NCBI GenBank assembly: GCA_013388745.1
Contig: JACAER010000029.1
Span: forward strand, 1-64,000
DNA from: Chloroflexota bacterium
GTDB taxonomy: Bacteria; Chloroflexota; Anaerolineae; Aggregatilineales; Phototrophicaceae
Reading direction: 5' to 3'
Length of the DNA: 64,000 nucleotides
Under the pieces are notes generated by a model. That model did no database searches. It saw only the letters and a list, made by a program, of their open reading frames with translations, and had not been told where the DNA came from. Made by a program: the position numbers and the translations under genes. Within the stretch, counting starts at the first letter, position 1; each line of letters starts with the position of its first letter. Positions 32,984 through 33,742 of the stretch are shown piece after piece.

Positions 32984-33142
32984 TCAACCACTGTGTACAT
33001 CATATGAGTTTTCAAGAGTGGGGTCAATGCCGCTGGATGAGCGTTCGGTAAAAGGCTGCTAAACTCTTGGTGAAGGGCGGTTTGACCAACGCGGGACGGC
33101 GGGGTAAATTGGTGCGGCGAGGTATCAAGGAGAGAAAAGCGT

Positions 33143-33742
33143 ATGGCGATTGAAATTGATGTCTGGTCGGATTATGTCTGACCGTACTGCCTGTTAGTCT
33201 CTTCCAGTTTGGAGAAGCTCGAAAAGCACTATGCCGTAGACATTCGCTGGCGCGCATTTGAACTGCGCCCAGCGGGTACGCCCCCGATGACGGAAGCGTT
33301 TATGCAGTATATCGCGACGGCGCGGCCAAAGTTTGAGCGTGTGGCACGCGAACAGTATGGGCTGGAAATCGACAGCGGTCCGTTTGGCATCAATTCGCAC
33401 GCGGCGCATGTGGCGGCACATTATGCGGTGCGGATGGGCGTTGGCGCGGCGTATCACAACGCGCTGCTGCGCGCCTACTGGCTGGAAGCGCGCGACATCA
33501 GCGATGCGGGGGTATTGGTCGAATTAGGCGAAAAGGCTGGCCTGAGCGCCGAAGGGCTGCGCGCGGCATTGGCTGACGCTGATTATGACAACAGCGTCAA
33601 GGCGGATATTTATCAGGCGCAACTACTGGGATTAGACGGCGTGCCGGCACTGATCTTCGCGAAAAAGTACCTGGTGAGCGGCGCGCAGCCGTATGATGTG
33701 CTGGCGCGTATCGTAGAACAGCTACAGGCGAAAGTGCGGTAG
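33143..33742 (+). CDS. DsbA/FrnE-like thiol oxidoreductase, probable selenoprotein (UPYC active site)
   Basis: 199-residue thioredoxin-fold protein, read with one in-frame TGA (33179-33181, codon 13) as selenocysteine. Before it, codons 1-12 give a normal FrnE/DsbA N-terminus (EIDVWSDYV), after it PYC follows, so the active site reads U-P-Y-C where relatives have C-P-x-C. The rest is continuous: helical insert (about 60-150), then the cis-Pro strand LGLDGVPALIFAKKYLVSGA and a final helix. ATG 33143 has AAGGAG 10 nt upstream. Starting at the TTG at 33209 would delete the catalytic site and first strand. Location is probably cytoplasmic (no signal peptide). Alternatives are a nonsense mutation or read error. 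The next gene is convergent. Confidence 0.8.
33199..33217 (+). promoter_or_regulatory. Possible bacterial SECIS-like hairpin
   Basis: Directly downstream of the TGA, CTCTTCC (33199-33205) can pair with GGAGAAG (33211-33217) with one mismatch and one G-U, leaving a five-base loop AGTTT. The loop begins 24 nt after the TGA and has G among its first two bases, which agrees with the loose bacterial SECIS model. The stem is short, so this is only supportive. Confidence 0.4.

Follow-up and report, generated by a model that had tools for sequence, protein, structure and literature searches.

A Chloroflexota FrnE-type DsbA-family oxidoreductase gene with a predicted selenocysteine at the active site

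Selenocysteine (Sec)-containing members of the DsbA family have been predicted since 2005, when a study of the Sargasso Sea reported nine Sec 'DsbA-like' proteins with a UXXC motif and the label COG2761 (PMC1088965). DsbA-like selenoproteins of Anaeromyxobacter, Desulfovibrio and Desulfotomaculum were included in a 2006 survey (PMC1794560), the GOS data contain DsbA 1-3 (PMC2398784), and a 2016 survey gives counts of 41 and 45 for the DsbA-like protein, which we read as organisms and proteins (PMC5029168). The Sec DsbA-like family also appears in reviews of 2022 and 2026, and is 'form 1' of the latter (PMC9312934, PMC13188914). A lead to a prior description in Ktedonobacter concerns a different protein, AhpC with a UAG codon (PMC5330540). 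A full-text search for selenoprotein together with FrnE found no description under the FrnE name, and no text on a Chloroflexota branch was found in the literature search. We take COG2761 to be the FrnE COG. In UxxC selenoproteins generally, the Sec attacks and the Cys resolves.

The gene analysed here lies in a stretch of 64,000 nucleotides (the window; contig JACAER010000029.1, positions 1 to 64,000) from a Chloroflexota metagenome-assembled genome (MAG) of 4.57 Mb in 69 contigs, about 89% complete. It occupies positions 33143-33742 of the forward strand, TAG stop included, and with TGA left open it translates into 199 residues (M-AIEIDVWSDYV-U-PYC...KVR-stop). The sole in-frame TGA, codon 13 at 33179-33181, takes the place of the first Cys in the CPxC motif, which thereby reads UPYC; the rest of the DsbA/FrnE protein is intact. 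Cys16 is the only Cys of the protein besides the Sec site. A Shine-Dalgarno-like AAGGAG is found at 33127-33132, 10 nt 5' of the ATG. A mechanically derived open reading frame free of the TGA begins only at TTG 33209, 3' of the active site, which is thereby lost. The original prediction had placed one TGA exactly on the catalytic Cys, read the codons on either side as one normal family member behind a Shine-Dalgarno and ATG, and expected automated annotation to begin at 33209; each of these points was confirmed by direct reading, translation and the domain match described below.

The Pfam domain PF01323 (DSBA) covers residues 4-189 of the window protein (E 1.7e-33). The UPYC motif lies within this domain, the combination of PF01323 and UxxC by which the DsbA-like selenoprotein family is recognized; no NCBIfam model matched the window protein. 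Comparison of a family profile with solved structures ranks Deinococcus radiodurans FrnE first (5cp1, 136 bits, likewise 136 bits for 5cnw) and Streptomyces coelicolor SCO1869 (3gl5) second. The AlphaFold2 model of the window protein (pLDDT 95.7, pTM 0.90) is closest to another FrnE structure (5co3, E 1.8e-15, TM 0.89). Sequence and predicted fold both lie nearest to Deinococcus FrnE, and the assignment as a putative FrnE type is supported by these nearest solved structures. The branch of 2-hydroxychromene-2-carboxylate isomerase and kappa GST has the DsbA-type thioredoxin fold in common with the window protein, but is a weaker match than FrnE in both sequence and fold, and the window protein retains the redox motif UPYC/CPxC. 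Val167 and Pro168 are invariant in protein alignments of 24 and of 33 rows; Pro168 (33644-33646, forward strand, in a GVPAL motif) is presumably the cis-Pro, a role we take from the thioredoxin fold in general.

The window protein differs from its Deinococcus counterpart in several respects. D. radiodurans FrnE is Cys-based and comprises 260 residues with a C-terminal extension harbouring Cys239, whereas the window protein has 199 residues and a predicted Sec in the first position. The second, C-terminal Cys motif of D. radiodurans FrnE, a feature of the Deinococcus protein that we do not assume to be general to the FrnE family, is absent from the full translation of the window protein, so that this part of the FrnE mechanism does not apply here. 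No signal peptide is apparent, and in the model the first beta strand begins directly at the start of the protein, for which reason it is best read as a probably cytoplasmic thiol oxidoreductase. Upstream of the gene lie a MarR-family regulator in divergent orientation and an ABC-2 type exporter, and downstream follows a convergent D-Ala-D-Ala-ligase-like ATP-grasp gene. Two more DsbA-family matches without internal stops are found in the same genome.

We then compared the TGA position with homologues (E <= 1e-30) in a sample of 98 genomes from the taxonomic family of the window. A homologue is present in 25 of the 98 genomes. The window included, 13 of these genes carry TGA at the same column and 12 carry TGC or TGT, that is, the window's TGA is found in 12 relatives and replaced by a Cys codon in 12 others. 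The other family homologues are 44-55% identical to the window protein, and D6, W8, S9, D10, the Sec/Cys residue, P14, C16, V167 and P168 are invariant in all 24 aligned rows. All 25 genes are free of internal TAA and TAG codons and of TGA codons at other positions. Alignment of the TGA with Cys in homologues is a hallmark of selenoprotein genes. Sampling 400 genomes evenly across the phylum yielded 27 homologues, of which 21 have TGA at the equivalent UPxC site. Both checks proposed with the original prediction, an alignment for Cys/Sec exchange and a search of relatives for other stop codons, thus bear it out, as they do its view that a random nonsense mutation would rarely strike this codon: in 12 more family genomes the only in-frame stop lies at this position, and it is always TGA.

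Taken in isolation, a lone TGA in an otherwise normal MAG gene would look just like a pseudogene or a sequencing error whose nonsense codon happened to fall in the active site. The recurrence of the same TGA in the family and phylum samples, which include isolates and a complete genome, argues against this. Moreover, the TGA copies are under purifying selection, with pairwise dN/dS of about 0.14 and 0.18 for two TGA pairs, and the RNA hairpin described below covaries. The conserved TGA column together with this covariation already refutes a decayed or misread gene, to which we give a vanishingly small probability.

The insertion of Sec in bacteria depends on an mRNA hairpin (SECIS) that lies just 3' of the UGA and has a G in its small apical loop. 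The TGA rows share a hairpin whose distance from the preceding UGA is constant, with the loop G at +26, a loop GUY and an invariant core CAGUYUG. In the window it corresponds to 33199-33217 of the forward strand, with 33199-33206 pairing to 33210-33217 around the loop 33207-33209. Across the 13 TGA rows 93.3% of the cells of the 8-pair helix are paired, and five of the eight pairs show compensatory changes on both sides. The covariation score of 0.540 compares with a mean of 0.189 for shuffled alignments and was reached in none of 500 shuffles, and sliding one side of the helix by 1-3 columns lowers pairing in the TGA rows to 37-53%. In the same columns of the 12 Cys rows, 49.0% of the cells are paired and there is no excess of pairing (206/500 shuffles) or covariation (73/500). 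This is further supported by RNAalifold, which unaided recovers the hairpin from the TGA rows and not from the Cys rows. Judged by position and covariation, the hairpin is a predicted bacterial SECIS.

None of the other 12 hairpins is as weak as the window copy, which forms 7 of the 8 pairs with one mismatch and one wobble at about -2.7 kcal/mol as drawn. When the downstream stretch of the window was folded alone, other structures were preferred and no significant structure was seen (z near 0), so that the hairpin is clear only by comparison. In deeper Chloroflexota families (L149, L151-L160) the TGA form is followed by another sequence, to which the CAGUYUG hairpin cannot be fitted.

The hairpin also bears on the notion that the UGA is a real stop and that a protein without active site is expressed only from the internal TTG at 33209, the start that a gene finder would choose. 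This TTG sits inside the predicted SECIS, while a Shine-Dalgarno-like site precedes 33143. Furthermore, the N-terminal beta strand and the WSDxxUPxC segment lie upstream of the TTG and are conserved in all relatives. Initiation at 33209 as the only route of expression is thus highly implausible.

The source genome was searched for the Sec machinery, a check suggested at the outset, and all four components were found. It encodes tRNA-Sec (68.7 bits, confirmed by ARAGORN with a TCA (UCA) anticodon), SelA (535 bits), SelB (347 bits) and SelD (366 bits), the set expected of a bacterium that makes selenoproteins. The selD gene (contig C53 of the genome, G000:C53:234589-235524, minus strand) has one in-frame TGA within an N-terminal SCAGUAS stretch and is itself a selenoprotein gene.

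The TGA form co-occurs with this machinery. We scored a tRNA-Sec as genuine at 66 bits or more (observed 66-75); the next scores are well separated from these, at 49 and below, and we read them as ordinary long-arm tRNAs. By this measure 12 of 13 TGA genomes have tRNA-Sec, as against none of the 12 Cys genomes (Fisher p 2.7e-6), and for selA the counts are 11 of 13 and none of 12 (p 2.0e-5), where both p-values ignore shared ancestry and hence overstate the independence of the genomes, although the direction never reverses. The TGA genome without detected tRNA-Sec and selA (G097) is 68% complete and has selB. Another TGA genome, a 97% complete MAG (G025, gene L041), has tRNA-Sec and selB while selA was not found, either because of an assembly gap or because Sec-tRNA is made by another route. 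A tree computed from all 25 proteins after masking of the Sec column requires seven Sec/Cys changes, at least three of them on well supported branches. The well supported branches provide only three independent contrasts, and wherever the machinery differs the direction is as expected.

These data also address whether UGA might be read as Trp or Cys throughout the genome, or by a suppressor tRNA, since any residue at the TGA would leave the frame open. However, the genome has a specific tRNA-Sec together with SelA, SelB and SelD, and the TGA form follows the presence of tRNA-Sec across genomes. In addition, no internal TGA interrupts the neighbouring reading frames, selA or selB, and a context signal, the hairpin, lies 3' of the UGA. 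We therefore consider recoding to another amino acid to have only a minute chance of being correct.

Thus, the selenoprotein reading is strongly supported because four lines of evidence converge on it: the TGA/Cys column, the covarying SECIS, the complete machinery and the joint occurrence of machinery and TGA form across genomes. We are close to certain that the gene encodes an apparently cytoplasmic FrnE-type thiol/disulfide oxidoreductase of the DsbA family in which a predicted Sec replaces the N-terminal nucleophilic Cys of CPxC and would be inserted via SelB and the SECIS. During translation, SelB with Sec-tRNA(Sec), supplied by SelA and SelD, would meet the UGA at 33179, and the mRNA hairpin, which spans about +18 to +36 relative to this codon, would hold SelB in place, leading to insertion of Sec at residue 13. 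In the protein, the selenolate may attack substrate disulfides, and Cys16 may resolve the selenenylsulfide.

The original prediction of a probable new selenoprotein accordingly stands as regards the selenoprotein and only in part as regards novelty. As Sec DsbA-like proteins were predicted in 2005 and have since been reviewed, the window gene is a new member rather than a new family, and a very well supported one. It shares with the known family the Pfam domain PF01323, a UxxC Sec site with Sec as the first residue, a COG label covering FrnE, and a bacterial SECIS after the UGA; the Sargasso Sea and reviewed members are likened to the window branch by their COG and Pfam labels only. The branch described here differs in being apparently cytoplasmic and of FrnE type, in its Chloroflexota-wide distribution and in the near-invariant CAGUYUG core of the SECIS in the nearer relatives. 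What is added by our analysis is this spread through the Chloroflexota and the repeated exchange of Sec and Cys that follows the Sec machinery.

Among named genomes, the TGA form is found in Anaerolineae, Caldilineaceae, Ardenticatenaceae, Kouleothrix and Ktedonobacteria, the last including Ktedonosporobacter rubrisoli (complete genome) and Thermosporothrix hazakensis (isolate). The genomes newly added by the phylum sample all have selB above the curated cut-off except G184, which carries the TGA form and gives only a sub-threshold selB match. Herpetosiphon (L079, L140-L145) has the Cys form in a genus that retains selB, indicating that the Sec machinery is necessary but not sufficient. Two FrnE genes from contigs titled Pleurocapsa minor (L112, JAHHHY010000009.1) and Bacteroidetes bacterium (L063, JAPUDW010000087.1) nest in the Chloroflexota family of the window, and these titles probably misname what are Chloroflexota MAGs.

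A larger quick tree needs 12 changes of the Sec/Cys label, of which only two are forced by its best supported branches. In this tree the Cys-type FrnE of Mizugakiibacter and of another Pseudomonadota MAG (L118, L120) are placed, with moderate support, among Sec copies from Chloroflexota, which suggests that they were acquired by transfer and then changed from Sec to Cys. We see roughly even chances that Sec is old or ancestral in Chloroflexota FrnE, that loss of Sec decoding has repeatedly led to Cys together with loss of the SECIS, and that some Cys copies have passed to other phyla. If so, the family would represent a repeated natural experiment in lineages that lost Sec decoding.

A predicted selenocysteine FrnE is thus common in Chloroflexota, cultivated Ktedonobacteria included, and its active site is likely to be missed by gene finders. 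With matched Sec and Cys orthologues and several switches within one taxonomic family, these genes provide a good set for asking what Sec adds to a thiol oxidoreductase, and the same set offers a test of what becomes of such a gene once a lineage drops the use of selenocysteine.
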